DNA of 64,000 nt, taken from the NCBI GenBank assembly GCA_001648575.1, contig LQXN01000064.1, positions 1-64,000 on the forward strand. The letters run 5' to 3'. Both the position numbers and the translations under genes were made by a program. The notes beneath the pieces were generated by a model that had not been told where the DNA came from, searched no databases, and saw nothing but the letters and a program-made list of their open reading frames with translations. Numbering within the stretch: the stretch's first letter is position 1; each line of letters begins with the position of its first letter. Below, piece by piece: positions 14,372 to 46,702 of the stretch. Source of the DNA: Sutcliffiella horikoshii DSM 8719 (lineage in GTDB: Bacteria; Bacillota; Bacilli; Bacillales; Bacillaceae_I).

Positions 14372-14452
14372 TCGTTTGCCGCGGTATAATTCCATGGTAG
14401 TTTCCCTTACTTAAACAACGTAAGCCCTACCTCTCATACGTCCTTACGGCTC
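14372..14452 (-). ncRNA. Candidate structured RNA downstream of a 30-codon ORF
   Basis: On the minus strand, after the small ORF, the RNA can form a nested hairpin: GGTAG pairs with CTACC (14427-14431 with 14396-14400) and inside it CTTAC pairs with GTAAG. Upstream a second option pairs CGTAAG with CTTACG. Alternative pairing of the same strands is the pattern of an attenuator. The region is richer in G+C than its surroundings. It matches no riboswitch family that I can name. Confidence 0.4.
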
Positions 14453-14545
14453 CTAGGCCGTGCCAGATCGATTAAGCTTCTGTGAAAAAACTATATGGAA
14501 CGCCAGTGCATCCTTGTGATACGTGGTATTGCTTAAGAATGTCAT
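14453..14545 (-). CDS. Short ORF, possible leader peptide
   Basis: Thirty codons starting ATG 14545 behind AAAGGAAG. It reads MTFLSNTTYHKDALAFHI, then VFSQKLNRSGTA, stop. A strong sigma-A promoter lies 58 bp upstream. The ORF is followed by a foldable G+C-richer segment and, 365 bp downstream of its stop, by the GNAT gene on the same strand. A regulatory leader peptide is one reading; a free small protein is another. No homology recognised. Confidence 0.45.
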   Translation of the reverse strand: MTFLSNTTYHKDALAFHIVFSQKLNRSGTA

Positions 14546-15745: not shown

Positions 15746-15772
15746 ACGTTTGGAGGTCATTCCTCCAAACGT
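15746..15772 (+). terminator. Terminator hairpin, proximal duplicate without T-tract
   Basis: ACGTTTGGAGG / CCTCCAAACGT hairpin directly after the CheR-like gene. It is followed by CAGACTG instead of a T run, so alone it should not terminate. An identical 27-bp copy lies beyond the inserted element at 15994. Confidence 0.85.
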
Positions 15773-15993
15773 CAGACTGTTGACAAAGCCCTAAATATTT
15801 TAAAATTTGCATCCAGCTGTTGATCTTCGTTCCAGGTGCTTCGCTTTTCGCGGGCGGTCCGGAAGCCTCCTCGGGCTTACGCCCTGCGGGGTCTTCCCTG
15901 TCCCTTCCTCCCGCAGAAGTCTGCGCGCCTTCCACTACGATCAACACAGGTTATTGCATATTTCAAAGATAAAATAACTTTGTCTACACACTG
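15773..15993 (+). mobile_element. MITE-like element 1, inserted at a terminator
   Basis: A 221-bp non-coding, G+C-rich element. Its ends are inverted repeats: left CAGACTGTTGACAAAG, right (inverted) CAGTGTGTAGACAAAG. It is flanked by perfect 27-bp direct repeats that are the terminator hairpin of the CheR-like gene. The core contains GCGGGCGGTCCGGAAGCC and GGGGTCTTCC, and inner inverted pieces AGCTGTTGATC / GATCAACAC. A related element lies at 18593-18801. It encodes nothing and must be mobilised in trans. Confidence 0.8.
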
Positions 15994-16026
15994 ACGTTTG
16001 GAGGTCATTCCTCCAAACGTTTTTTA
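15994..16026 (+). terminator. Terminator hairpin, distal duplicate with T-tract
   Basis: The same 27-bp hairpin as at 15746, here followed by TTTTT. It keeps the T-tract and is the working terminator, so transcripts of the CheR-like gene should run through the MITE to this point. It also faces the end of the convergent PAS gene. Confidence 0.8.
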
Positions 16027-17497: not shown

Positions 17498-18553
17498 ATG
17501 AATTATCAATCAAATGTACAAGAAACCTTTACATTAATCAAAGAACTTGTGTCAATTCCTAGCCCATCCGGTAACACGGAAAAAGTAATCGGTTTTGTAG
17601 AAAAATACTTAACGGAATGTGGTGTTGAGACGTACCGGAATAGAAAAGGCGGATTGATTGCTACCTTGAAAGGGAGCAATGACAAAGAGCACCGAATGTT
17701 GACAGCACATGTTGATACACTTGGTGCCATGGTGAAAGAAGTAAAGTCCAATGGGAGATTAAAGCTTACTACCATTGGAGGTTTTCGTTGGAATTCTGTA
17801 GAAGGGGAGTATTGCCAAATTGAAACCTCTTCAGGAAAAAACTATACCGGTACGATCCTGATGCATCAGACTTCTGTCCATGTATATAAAAATGCAGGAG
17901 ATGCCCCTCGAAACGATGAAAACATTGAAGTGCGTATTGACGAAAAAGTGACTAATGCCGAAGAAGTGAGGGCCCTTGGAATTGAAGTCGGGGATTTTGT
18001 TTCCTTCGATCCACGCGTGCAAATAACAGATAGCGGCTACATAAAATCAAGACACCTTGACGACAAAGCGAGCGTCGCTATTTTACTTAAACTGATTAAG
18101 TTTATGCAATCAGAGAAAATAACCCTTCCGTACACTACACATTTCTTGATTTCCAATAATGAAGAAATAGGGTACGGTGGCAATTCCAATATTACGCCTG
18201 AAACGGTGGAATATCTGGCTGTTGATATGGGGGCACTTGGTGATGGGCAATCCTCAGATGAATACACGGTATCCATCTGTGTGAAAGATTCAAGCGGACC
18301 ATACCATTATGGTTTAAGAAAACATTTAGTGGACCTTGCGAAGAAAAATGATGTGGACTATAAGGTGGATATCTATCCATTTTACGGCTCAGACGCTTCC
18401 GCTGCCATCCGTTCAGGACACGATATCATCCATGGGTTGATTGGCCCTGGCATCGAATCTTCCCATGCATTTGAACGAACACATGAGAGTTCGATTGCGA
18501 ATACGGAGAAGCTGATCTACCATTATTTATTGTCGGATATGGTTAAGTACTAA
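17498..18553 (+). CDS. M42-family metallo-aminopeptidase
   Basis: A 351-residue peptidase. Metal and catalytic motifs are in order: AHVDTLGAMV (first metal His and Asp), RHLDDKASVA (bridging Asp), NNEEIGYGGNSN (catalytic Glu pair), AVDMGALG (metal Asp) and a late ESSHAFERTHESS (metal His). The family includes glutamyl and other aminopeptidases that work as large cytoplasmic complexes and trim peptides. ATG start; the nearest purine-rich site is AAAGGAAGTG. Monocistronic, with a MITE-split terminator. Confidence 0.92.
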   Translation: MNYQSNVQETFTLIKELVSIPSPSGNTEKVIGFVEKYLTECGVETYRNRKGGLIATLKGSNDKEHRMLTAHVDTLGAMVKEVKSNGRLKLTTIGGFRWNSVEGEYCQIETSSGKNYTGTILMHQTSVHVYKNAGDAPRNDENIEVRIDEKVTNAEEVRALGIEVGDFVSFDPRVQITDSGYIKSRHLDDKASVAILLKLIKFMQSEKITLPYTTHFLISNNEEIGYGGNSNITPETVEYLAVDMGALGDGQSSDEYTVSICVKDSSGPYHYGLRKHLVDLAKKNDVDYKVDIYPFYGSDASAAIRSGHDIIHGLIGPGIESSHAFERTHESSIANTEKLIYHYLLSDMVKY

Positions 18554-18562
18554 ACGTGTAAA

Positions 18563-18592
18563 AGAGCATTCCCGCTTCATATGGGAATGCTC
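18563..18592 (+). terminator. Terminator hairpin of the M42 gene, proximal duplicate
   Basis: GAGCATTCCC / GGGAATGCTC hairpin followed by AGCTTGTAG rather than T residues. The same 30 bp recur at 18802-18831 on the far side of the inserted element. Confidence 0.85.
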
Positions 18593-18801
18593 AGCTTGTA
18601 GACTAACTATAAATAAATTAAGTTAACTGTTGGTACAGTTGATCTCCGTTGCAGGAGCTACGCTTTCCTGCGGGCGGTCCGTAAGCCTCCTCGGCTTCGC
18701 CTGCGGGGTCTTACATGTCCCTTCCTCCCGCGGGAGTCTTCGCTCCTTCCACTGCGATCAACTAGGAAATTTCATTATTCTATAGCTTTGTCTACACACT
18801 G
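18593..18801 (+). mobile_element. MITE-like element 2, inserted at a terminator
   Basis: A 209-bp relative of the element at 15773. The right end is identical over CTTTGTCTACACACTG; the left end (CAGCTTGTAGACTAAC, counting the shared C) is a weaker inverted copy. The core has GCGGGCGGTCCGTAAGCC, CTCCTCGGCTTCGCC and CCTTCCTCCCGCGGGAG. Flanks are perfect 29-30 bp direct repeats formed by the terminator hairpin of the M42 peptidase gene. Confidence 0.8.
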
Positions 18802-18837
18802 AGAGCATTCCCGCTTCATATGGGAATGCTCTTTTTA
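18802..18837 (+). terminator. Terminator hairpin, distal duplicate with T-tract
   Basis: Identical hairpin to 18563-18592, followed by TTTTTAG. It retains termination capacity and also lies at the end of the convergent splB gene. Confidence 0.8.
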
Positions 18838-18848
18838 GATTACTTTCA

Positions 18849-19874
18849 TTAGGTGAAATACTCGATCCTAGCCTGTGGAAAATATGAATGGATATATTCA
18901 GATAGAGTTTCCTTGATTTCGGTCGCTTCATCTTTTGTATAGACATATTTTCCGATTCCATAACGCCCCCATTTATACTGACGTTTTGCTTCATCAAGCT
19001 CAAGCTTTGTCATAGGATAGTTCTGTTGGATGACCCTTTTGGCAGGCTTTGTGAATCTGTGCTGGATCAATTCAAATGTCAGATCCTCGGTTGCCTTGGC
19101 AGGAAGCTTATCATATAGCTTTTGGAACAAGGTCTTGTACCCTTCCTCCCAGCCCTCATGCAGATAGATGGGAGCTACGATAAATCCAAGCGGGTAATCT
19201 GCACCTGCCACTTTGGCGGCTGCTTCAATCCTTAGATCAAGCGAAGATGTACCCGGTTCAAAATTTTTGATGACATAATCGGCATTGACACTGAAACGAA
19301 ACCTTGTCTTTCCGCGATGGTCGGCATCTAAAAGATGGTCAACATGATGAAATTTCGTGACAAAGCGCAAAAGTCCATGTTCTGATTTTCCAAAGTATTC
19401 GATCGCTCTTTTTAAGGAATGAGTAAGATGGTCAATCCCAACGATATCCGAAGTACAAGATGCTTCAAACCGTGTTATTTCCGGAGCACGCTCTTGCATA
19501 TATTTATCGGCTGCATCAAAAATCTCATCCAAGTTAACATACGTCCTGATATATGGTTTGCTGCCCATTGTCGTCTGCAAGTAACAATAATGACAATGTC
19601 CCATACAGCCTGTAGCAAATGGGATAGCATATTCGGCTGAAGGTTTTGAAGTGTCAAATTTTAAAGTTTTCCTTACCCCGACAACAAGAGTTGATTTGGC
19701 AGTTCTGTATTTTTGAAAATCATTGTCACCAGGTAGGTTTCTAATCTGATTGTGTGAAGTGGTTTCCCGGATTTCCAAACCCATTGCTTCAAACTTTTCC
19801 TTCAATTCCCTCCCGAGGGGGTAATCGAGAGCCCTTGGTTCTATGTAAACAAGCTGTGGTACAAACGGCTTCAA
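18849..19874 (-). CDS. splB: Spore photoproduct lyase
   Basis: A 341-residue radical-SAM enzyme that reverts the thymine dimer 'spore photoproduct' in germinating spores. The 4Fe-4S motif is C90-x3-C94-x2-C97 in ATGCMGHCHYCYLQT, the SplB spacing. Conserved segments include IEPRALDYPLGREL and RFSVNADYVIKNFEPG. TTG start at 19874 behind AAAGGAGGG. It follows splA after 14 bp, the same order as in B. subtilis, where the pair is made in the forespore. Confidence 0.97.
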   Translation of the reverse strand: MKPFVPQLVYIEPRALDYPLGRELKEKFEAMGLEIRETTSHNQIRNLPGDNDFQKYRTAKSTLVVGVRKTLKFDTSKPSAEYAIPFATGCMGHCHYCYLQTTMGSKPYIRTYVNLDEIFDAADKYMQERAPEITRFEASCTSDIVGIDHLTHSLKRAIEYFGKSEHGLLRFVTKFHHVDHLLDADHRGKTRFRFSVNADYVIKNFEPGTSSLDLRIEAAAKVAGADYPLGFIVAPIYLHEGWEEGYKTLFQKLYDKLPAKATEDLTFELIQHRFTKPAKRVIQQNYPMTKLELDEAKRQYKWGRYGIGKYVYTKDEATEIKETLSEYIHSYFPQARIEYFT

Positions 19875-28293: not shown

Positions 28294-29861
28294 TTGAATG
28301 AATTTCATAAATAAGAGCCTTACAGGCTCAGGGCTTCTGGACAACAAAAAAAGGAGTACCTCCCCAACTTGTCGAAAAGAGTAGTTACCACAACAACTCT
28401 ACAGACTAAAGACTGGAGGAAGACTCCCTATGACTATTATACGACAAGGAAGCCTTTTCGGGATACAAGAATTGTATGATTTACAACCTACCCAACGATT
28501 CGAAGCTATTTTTTCTACTTTTAATATGGACCAGATCTTCGCTGTGGTAACGAAGAAGTCCCGTTTTGGTAGACCAGTTGAACTAAATTACGCTGCAATG
28601 GTGTACTCATTAGTGGCTAGGATCATTGAACGTATTCCATTTATTAAAGACTTGGTTCGTAGATTAAAGTATGACATGATCTTTCGTCTAGATTGTGGTT
28701 TTTTGGTATCCGATTCGGTACCTTCTGAAGCTGCTTTTTCTAGAATGATTACTATAATTAGTGAATCCAACGTTCTTGAAAGTGTTCAAGATGCTCTACT
28801 GATACGAGCGATCAATGAAGGATATATCAACGATGATACAGTGGCTACAGATGCTTGCCATTTTGAATCACGTGATCAAGCACCTCCAAAGGAAGAAAAG
28901 CCTGAGACTGAACCTAAAAAACGAGGTCGCAAAACAAAAGCAGCACGGGAACAGTGGCTCATTGAACAAGCAGAGCTTGAGGCGAACCTACCTCTATTCG
29001 AAAAGAAAATTGAAGCACAACTTGATGTTCCTTTGGAACAACTGCGGGTTGAAATTCCGCAAGAGCCCCGTTGGGGCGTGAAAAAGAATAGTGAAGGAAA
29101 AAACGTTTTCTGGTATGGATATAAAGCGCATTTAGCTGTTGGTGCTAAAAGCCAATATATTCTTCAATCCATTCTTTCTTCCGGAAATCTTAATGATGGA
29201 AAGGCAGCGATTCCTTTATTAAAAGGGATTCAAGAACGATTACCTATCTCTACTATTCGTTATCACACCATGGATGCAGGGTATGACTTTGAACCGATTT
29301 ATAAGCAGATTCATCAGATAGGGCATCAAGCTGTTATTCCTTATAATAGGCGAAATGAGCCTGAATTAATTGGCTTTGATAAACACTTCGCACCCACATG
29401 TGTGCGGGAGCATTCTTATCGATATGATAGCTTTGATCGAAAGTATGAAACCCTTAAATATTCGAGGCCTAAGGAATGTCAAACCTGTCCTCTAGCTAAT
29501 GATGAGCTTTGCCAAAAAGTATTTAAAGTAAGGATAACCACAGACCTTAGAAAATACACCGCACCTGCGCGTGGGTCGAAGACCTGGAAGAACATCTTTA
29601 AACGGCGAACTGCAGTGGAACGGGTTAATGCATACCTAAAAGAATTTTATCAGCTAAACAATGTTCGTTATCGCACCGGAAAGCGTGCCAAAGTTCATTT
29701 TGATCTCGTAACGTTAGTTTATAACGCTACAAAATTAGCGGCCGATCGTATTAATGCCTTATTAAATAGCCAGCAAGCTGTATAAAACCAAAAAAGTATA
29801 AGGAATCATAATTCTGTATGTCTATGATTTTTTTAAAAGAGCAATTATGAAATTGATTCGG
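28294..29861 (+). mobile_element. Intact IS1182-family insertion sequence
   Basis: A 1568-bp element. Terminal inverted repeats are imperfect: left TTGAATGAATTTCATAAA, right (inverted) CCGAATCAATTTCATAAT. It is flanked by TTAA on both sides (28290-28293 and 29862-29865), a 4-bp target duplication. It carries one intact transposase gene. A second copy (window start, frameshifted) and a decayed third (9300-9640) are present. Confidence 0.92.
28430..29785 (+). CDS. IS1182-family transposase
   Basis: A 451-residue DDE transposase. The N-terminal IS5/IS1182-type domain contains FVEL-like RPVELNYAAMVYSLVARII and DCGFLVSDSVPSEAAFSRM. The catalytic Asp/Glu residues lie in VATDACHFES, HTMDAGYDFEPIY and RRTAVERVNAYLKEF. 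A central Lys/Arg-rich segment (PKKRGRKTKAAREQW) interrupts the core. ATG start behind CTGGAGGAAG. The reading frame is complete. Confidence 0.95.
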   Translation: MTIIRQGSLFGIQELYDLQPTQRFEAIFSTFNMDQIFAVVTKKSRFGRPVELNYAAMVYSLVARIIERIPFIKDLVRRLKYDMIFRLDCGFLVSDSVPSEAAFSRMITIISESNVLESVQDALLIRAINEGYINDDTVATDACHFESRDQAPPKEEKPETEPKKRGRKTKAAREQWLIEQAELEANLPLFEKKIEAQLDVPLEQLRVEIPQEPRWGVKKNSEGKNVFWYGYKAHLAVGAKSQYILQSILSSGNLNDGKAAIPLLKGIQERLPISTIRYHTMDAGYDFEPIYKQIHQIGHQAVIPYNRRNEPELIGFDKHFAPTCVREHSYRYDSFDRKYETLKYSRPKECQTCPLANDELCQKVFKVRITTDLRKYTAPARGSKTWKNIFKRRTAVERVNAYLKEFYQLNNVRYRTGKRAKVHFDLVTLVYNATKLAADRINALLNSQQAV

Positions 29862-46370: not shown

Positions 46371-46532
46371 TTTGGGATAACCCAGCTGTTGATTGGAGCA
46401 CAGAGCGAAGACTCCTGAGGGAGATAGCGCTAGGTGGAGACCCCGCAGGCAAAGCCGAGGAGGCTCCACCGGCGCCCCTAGGAAAGCGAAGCTCAGTGCG
46501 GAAATCAACAGCAGTGTTTATTCGAACCCAAA
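46371..46532 (-). repeat. GC-rich imperfect palindrome related to the MITE cores
   Basis: Outer arms TTTGGG and CCCAAA, then AGCTGTTGATT / AATCAACAGC, enclosing a G+C-rich core with CTCCTGAGGGAG, GGAGACCCCGCAGGC and GAGGAGGCTCC. The core words match, inverted, those of the elements at 15773 and 18593, but the CAGTGTGTAGACAAAG ends and the long target duplication are missing. It sits between the SAM-riboswitch terminator and the binding-protein gene, lengthening the leader by about 160 nt. Confidence 0.7.
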
Positions 46533-46596: not shown

Positions 46597-46702
46597 CTCT
46601 TATCTTTCAAAACATCACTGTTTTGCAGGATTTAGCACCAATTCCAAACGGAACGGTTGCTGGGCGTCATAGGGCCAGTCCCTCTGCCACTCTTGATAAG
46701 AG
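46597..46702 (-). promoter_or_regulatory. SAM-I (S-box) riboswitch
   Basis: The minus strand reads CTCTTATCAAGAGTGGCAGA, GGGACTGGCCCTATGACGCC, CAGCAACC, then GGTGCTAAATCCTGC and closes with GATAAGAG. These are the conserved S-box blocks, including the outer stem P1 (CTCTTATC / GATAAGAG). It controls the RbsABC-type operon downstream, which should therefore be on when SAM is low. Confidence 0.97.

Follow-up and report, generated by a model that had tools for sequence, protein, structure and literature searches.

Miniature elements flanked by duplicated hairpins in Sutcliffiella horikoshii and their likeness to IS1182-family insertion sequences

Direct repeats recorded in ISfinder for the IS1182 family range from 0 to 60 bp. 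In the accessible parts of the papers that describe them, IS1272 and TnSha1 of this family target hairpins regardless of sequence, where the hairpin sequence is deleted or replaced and no target duplication arises (PMC5678879; PMC4923244). Several of the TnSha1 targets have been identified as terminators by RNA-seq, and insertion in both orientations has been reported, according to the same parts of the two papers (PMC4923244; PMC5678879). Two hypothetical pathways drawn by Wan et al. (2017), as set out in the available text, would give other outcomes: in pathway b, a cruciform attacked at its 5' feet would yield a duplication of the whole stem-loop, and in pathway c, attack at the loop would lead to duplication of the loop (PMC5678879). 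For ISPse1 of Paracoccus, the available text gives a 4-bp repeat (PMC3281130).

Here we describe a small element that lies between two copies of one hairpin in Sutcliffiella horikoshii DSM 8719, together with its genomic copies and its larger relatives. The window is the whole stretch of DNA that was analysed, 64,000 nucleotides of contig LQXN01000064.1; its genome is referred to as G000, and the genomes searched were taken one per species.

The element, its hairpins and the orthologous sites

The features at 18,563-18,830 and the genes on either side are as follows.

17498..18553, + strand: M42 glutamyl aminopeptidase gene, upstream (ORF; PF05343, E 2.9e-91)
18563..18591, + strand: left hairpin copy, a 29-bp target-site duplication with no T-tract after it (identical to 18802-18830; folds as a hairpin)
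18592..18801, + strand: the element, a 210-bp IS1182-type MITE with imperfect terminal inverted repeats of about 15 bp, CAG...CTG (ends common to other genomic copies; left end identical in 14 of 15 letters to that of an intact IS, L083)
18640..18765, + strand: internal core repeat, GTTGATC...GATCAAC (predicted fold, a single long irregular hairpin; found in some autonomous IS1182 elements as well)
18802..18830, + strand: right hairpin copy, 29 bp, followed by a T-tract (fold, terminator call, identity to the left copy)
18849..19874, - strand: spore photoproduct lyase gene, downstream and convergent (ORF; PF20903, E 1.6e-198)

The two 29-bp copies are identical, and one more C is common to both, so that a repeat of 30 bp is equally valid. 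The first-pass annotation had given a 209-bp element with repeats of 29-30 bp; the repeats stand at that length, but the element measures 210 bp. As DNA, the copies at 18,563 and 18,802 each fold into one hairpin (-10.8 kcal/mol with z -5.70, and -11.7 kcal/mol with z -6.46, respectively). The element between them is without a transposase gene, its longest internal ORF being 51 aa, and an Rfam scan of the window returned no family at gathering score over it. The flanks had been read as the terminator of the M42 gene. That gene does lie upstream and the hairpins are real, but the M42 and lyase genes are convergent, and the original terminator may therefore have acted for both and not for M42 alone; the T-tract and the terminator-like call (18801-18833) belong to the right copy only. 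The left copy, 18563-18591, has no terminator call on either strand, and termination of the lyase gene may therefore not be kept at this site.

A second case within 3 kb, also claimed in the first reading of this DNA, is real, and consists of a related element between identical hairpins.

15746..15772, + strand: left copy, 27 bp, of another terminator hairpin (sequence comparison)
15773..15993, + strand: sister element, 221 bp, of a second subtype (comparison with genomic copies)
15994..16020, + strand: right hairpin copy, 27 bp, followed by a T-tract (identity, fold, terminator call)

This sister element follows a CheR-domain gene, and its right hairpin copy is the terminator-like one. By eye, the hairpins of the two cases have nothing in common beyond a six-letter word, and the first reading had likewise seen no shared sequence. 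Upstream of the CheR-domain gene there is also an Rfam match to the BsrC sRNA (14406-14492, + strand; 76 bits against a cut-off of 38).

The same gene ends were compared in same-genus relatives. Between the M42 and lyase genes, where G000 has a gap of 302 bp with two hairpins, seven of 15 relatives have a gap of 47-63 bp with one hairpin, whose sequence varies between species; in the remaining eight the lyase gene lies outside the stretch (five) or further away (three). The gene at the cheR site is present in 11 relatives, 10 of which show there a gap of 58-91 bp from which the element is absent. Genome G014 has its own insertion there, with two hairpin copies that are nearly the same as the one hairpin at the empty site in G008.

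Genomic copies and autonomous IS1182 relatives

The 15-letter right end of the element occurs 150 times (61 + 89) in G000 with at most one mismatch, as opposed to once for the reversed pattern, and 99 of these sites are exact. It had been argued that two cases so close together speak against chance, and an alignment of all genomic copies had been named as the check; the 99 exact sites, taken regardless of hairpins, support the argument. A hairpin lies 0-3 nt from the right end at 94 of them, against 13, 27 and 12 of 99 at control positions 20, 40 and 60 nt further out, and 329 of 2000 positions drawn at random from the window. At 79 of the 99 sites there is an anchored direct repeat, mostly palindromic and 20-39 bp in length (median 26), whereas flanks paired at random across sites gave one in 6 of 3000 trials. 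Outer stems of 5 pairs or more were found in 57 of these 79 repeats and in 295 of 7900 shuffled ones, and moving the repeat unit by one base lowers the 57 to 4 and 13. The other 20 sites comprise nine without a recognisable left end and 11 (among 90 two-ended sites) with low scores; inspected by eye, eight of the 11 have diverged or indel-bearing repeats and three have a different or no matching left hairpin.

G014 behaves likewise, with repeats of 15-33 bp (21 of them perfect) at 33 of the 35 right ends found at no more than one mismatch in the stretches examined, and with outer stems of at least 5 pairs in 27 of the 33, against 132 of 3300 shuffled repeats. One G014 copy, L238, is an exception to the rule, in that its 15-bp repeat spans only part of the target hairpin. 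Two G000 loci, L044 and L032, are tandem arrangements of two elements and three near-identical hairpins, as if a duplicated hairpin had been struck again. For 114 elements of G000 and G014, the neighbouring genes (taken from ORFs only, both neighbours required, four elements at stretch ends excluded) are convergent in 57 cases, tandem in 54 and divergent in 3; intergenic gaps of more than 60 bp in the window are convergent in 5 cases, tandem in 27 and divergent in 6. Between tandem genes, 27 elements point with the genes and 27 against them, so there is no preference of orientation.

Larger elements with transposase genes are found between duplicated hairpins as well. One such example is L083 (G007, same genus), a 1513-bp IS on plasmid NZ_CP082921.1 of Sutcliffiella horikoshii with perfect 30-bp hairpins on both sides, whose left and right ends agree with those of the element in 14 and 12 of 15 letters, respectively. 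Its transposase is intact (448 aa; 477.4 bits against the NF033551 cut-off of 270) and has the DDE domains PF13751, PF05598 and PF01609; D150, D277 and E404 are invariant in 22 rows and were assigned as the candidate DDE triad. The AlphaFold model of this protein has a mean pLDDT of 65, with 139 of 448 residues below 50; its best fold matches are Tn5 transposase (TM 0.34-0.35), and the model gives no indication of how a junction would be bound. Sequence comparison with solved structures returned only two chance-level matches (E 0.18 and 0.27).

To widen the comparison, the best 80 of 461 relatives from genome contigs were taken, of which nine lack an end, and ends were assigned without regard to the repeat. 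Among the resulting 71 loci, 61 carry direct repeats (59 of them perfect; 19-42 bp), and outer stems of 5 pairs or more occur in 56 of the 61 as opposed to 75 of 12200 shuffled repeats; the first letter is A in 49 and the last letter T in 54. The ten low-scoring loci comprise five with almost no flank at a contig end, one with an N and four with unmatched flanks (L130, L182, L183 and L186). In Bacillus sp. OV166, all 12 IS copies have perfect and mutually different hairpin repeats of 19-33 bp. Four 1563-bp copies of another IS1182 element in G011 have hairpin repeats of 24, 20, 22 and 27 bp and, in the stretches matched, stops in their transposase frames. That structure and not base sequence is the target, as first proposed from the two window cases, is thus upheld by the genome-wide survey and by these autonomous relatives. 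The accompanying idea that the 3' side always keeps the T-tract holds for most sites but not for all: four or more T follow the right copy within 8 nt at 59 of 79 MITE and 57 of 61 IS sites. Four or more A stand within the 8 nt that precede the left copy at 62 of 79 and 54 of 61 sites, respectively.

The core of the element, about 130 bp, lies inside 18 of the 71 IS elements, 12 of the 18 being the OV166 copies. It is upstream of the transposase gene in 16 (the 12 OV166 copies among them) and inverted and downstream in two, L158 and L171, an arrangement that suggests repeated capture of the core by IS elements. Because the core lies inside IS1182 elements, the MITE is, from its sequence, most simply seen as a core-bearing IS minus its transposase, which would make it a non-autonomous derivative of the IS1182 family. 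For the core, a single irregular hairpin is predicted, with two-sided changes at 13 of 33 pairs in at least one of 18 sequences and a small covariation term (-1.18). No match to the core was found in phages. Core-only matches are present in eight plasmid records, three of which by their coordinates adjoin IS1182 transposases, and many among the matches listed for same-genus relatives span only the core. The window itself has a lone diverged core at 46403-46494 (- strand; 79.6% identity) without element ends; a SAM riboswitch (46597-46702) lies about 100 bp away.

For G000, the search for an intact IS1182 partner gave nothing but fragments and stop-containing copies of the L083 kind. The window does carry a distant IS1182-type transposase (28430-29785, + strand; 451 aa; 262.8 bits, just below the cut-off of 270); it was considered as a partner and rejected, there being no element ends nearby at up to two mismatches, and it is remote in the transposase tree. 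A truncated copy of it occupies positions 1-470 at the contig end, and the hairpin GAGCCTTACAGGCTC adjoins the left end of both copies. G014 is rich in near-identical MITEs and has only two weak IS1182 matches; the mobilising transposase there has therefore been lost or is a different one.

Target outcomes, symmetry and mechanism

The outcome at the target differs between groups of IS1182 elements. A wider set of 166 loci was assembled, of which two were dropped for short frames and 27 of the remaining 164 had ends that were not found. Hairpin repeats accompany type-b ends in 102 of 108 loci (79 of 85 without the 12 OV166 and 11 G084 copies), ends of the GAGGCCACTGAAAAA type go with 8-9 bp repeats in 13 of 13 loci, and all 16 loci with ends of the GAGGCTGGGACA type lack a repeat; type-b and 8-9 bp ends were picked partly by repeat score, which favours repeats in this wider set, unlike the 71-locus set. 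The six type-b loci without a repeat were inspected by eye: L182, L186, L319 and L335 have different hairpins on their two sides, L321 has an indel-bearing repeat, and in L183 the right side is unmatched. At 4 of 13 sites of the 8-9 bp group, the whole repeat is unpaired in a predicted hairpin loop, and at the others part of it is, and the fold is no stronger than its surroundings at 3 of 13; a loop duplication, on these predicted folds, is suggestive only. In the no-repeat group, the left flanks are rich in A and the right flanks in T (5.4 of 8 letters each, as opposed to 2.8 and 2.3 further out), which on the sequence would fit the replacement of a terminator. In G005, five IS1182 copies with GAGGCCACTGAAAAA ends (L087, L094, L099, L104 and L108) lie inside core repeats with 8-9 bp repeats of their own, a case in which one member of the family takes the core of another as its target. 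On a transposase tree with one row per near-identical transposase (27 unlabelled rows excluded), the three outcome labels (60, 13 and 5 rows) need two changes, which is the minimum; the branch of the hairpin-duplicating group has 60% support, and the program flags long branches.

The duplications are symmetric. When perfect repeats only were taken (95 IS and 30 MITE), the centre of the repeat fell on the best dyad axis, within a search range of 6 nt, in 90 of 95 and 25 of 30, respectively. The repeats stop a median of 3-4 bp short of the limits of the maximal predicted hairpin, so that "whole hairpin" here means a symmetric part of the hairpin. Repeat length follows the length of the maximal predicted hairpin weakly (r 0.26 for IS and 0.58 for MITE repeats), and on these values the duplication was judged not to equal that hairpin. 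DDE transposases normally cut at a near-fixed stagger. In G084, all 11 copies of one 1709-bp IS have hairpin repeats, and four copies in one hairpin sequence have produced repeats of 18, 22, 22 and 34 bp, all symmetric; one of the four is opposite in orientation, and the surrounding A/T runs differ slightly. A fixed stagger is thereby excluded, and symmetric joins around a branch-migrating junction would account for the four lengths. Together, the 17-42 bp span of the perfect IS repeats and their centring on the palindrome axis point to recognition of DNA structure.

The reading we favour, and hold to be very probable from the sequences at hand, is that an IS1182 DDE transposase acting in trans joins the MITE ends symmetrically at an extruded cruciform, where gap filling duplicates the hairpin. 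The transposase would pick a palindrome able to extrude as a cruciform, mostly one of the terminator-like hairpins just 3' of genes, and its substrate would thus be a four-way junction. Each of the two 3' ends of the element would be joined to one strand, on the 5' side of its extruded hairpin, with the two joins placed symmetrically, and filling-in of the single-stranded hairpins by gap repair would leave the hairpin duplicated. Since the duplication is centred on the dyad axis and elements between tandem genes are oriented 27:27, a folded hairpin in the DNA fits the data better than terminator function as such. The T-rich tail is usually kept by the right copy, and termination of the upstream gene is therefore probably preserved, with the element joining its 3' untranslated RNA; terminators would in this way serve as a safe haven.

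The most serious alternative keeps the hairpin as target but places it on one strand, in a lagging-strand gap, an R-loop or the transcription bubble at a terminator, instead of in a double-stranded cruciform. Such structures may form 3' of genes, where most sites are (57 convergent, 54 tandem, 3 divergent); yet a single-stranded target should bias orientation, as the 27 against 27 elements between tandem genes do not, and repeat ends symmetric about a dyad are more simply explained by a two-strand structure, so we consider this unlikely. Selection is another matter: insertions into terminators should be near harmless, and selection probably shapes where copies survive. That it alone has retained terminator insertions from ordinary long-stagger transposition is highly improbable, however, as selection cannot centre repeats of 17-42 bp on an axis (90 of 95), and all 12 OV166 and 11 G084 copies have hairpin repeats.

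Two further readings concern the origin of the hairpins and the identity of the enzyme. Different hairpins on the two sides of L071, L182 and L186 are as expected after recombination, but that the hairpins in general are part of the element, or are products of recombination or slippage among its copies, is scarcely credible, given that the hairpin varies by site and yet matches across each element, that orthologous sites hold one hairpin, and that the cheR site is empty in G008 and filled in G014. A transposase from outside IS1182 could have moved the MITE, with the similar ends due to convergence, and the lack of an intact IS1182 partner in G000 and G014 is in its favour; the similar terminal sequence, the common core and the same unusual target behaviour make this improbable. 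Beyond the cruciform reading, one transposase family may act with three geometries on a folded target, namely replacement, 8-9 bp loop duplication, and whole-hairpin duplication on an extruded four-way junction that slides symmetrically by branch migration, a scheme that we regard as evenly poised between right and wrong. If true, it would be a DDE strand transfer whose stagger is set by the shape of the DNA and not by the enzyme.

Comparison with described systems

With many natural insertions at hand, a published and previously untested drawing, pathway b, is now strongly supported and directly testable. The insertions could also record which palindromes fold in living cells, and they show a parasite that has reached about 150 places in one genome by landing at gene ends, probably at little cost. 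REP/IS110-IS1111 elements and group IIC introns are associated with palindromes or terminators as well, via other enzymes, and we know of no hairpin duplication for either.

No report of a whole-hairpin duplication was found in the open literature searched, including the accessible parts of PMC5678879, PMC4923244, PMC3852290, PMC10969869 and PMC3281130, and earlier notice elsewhere is possible. Like the bacterial MITEs described in the available text of PMC10969869, the present elements are small, have terminal inverted repeats and no transposase gene, and occur in many copies; they differ from those in their long, variable and palindromic target duplication and in a target choice by structure only. 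The other IS1182 groups (NF033551) in our set, with no repeat in 16 of 16 loci or 8-9 bp in 13 of 13, are unlike the hairpin duplicators. With IS1272 and TnSha1, as far as the accessible parts of their descriptions go, the hairpin duplicators share a transposase family and inverted-repeat targets without sequence preference, and they differ in that the hairpin, deleted or replaced by IS1272 and TnSha1, is duplicated here (61 of 71 and 102 of 108 loci). As read from their sequences, the present insertions match in detail the hypothetical pathway b of Wan et al. (2017), as it appears in the available text (PMC5678879).
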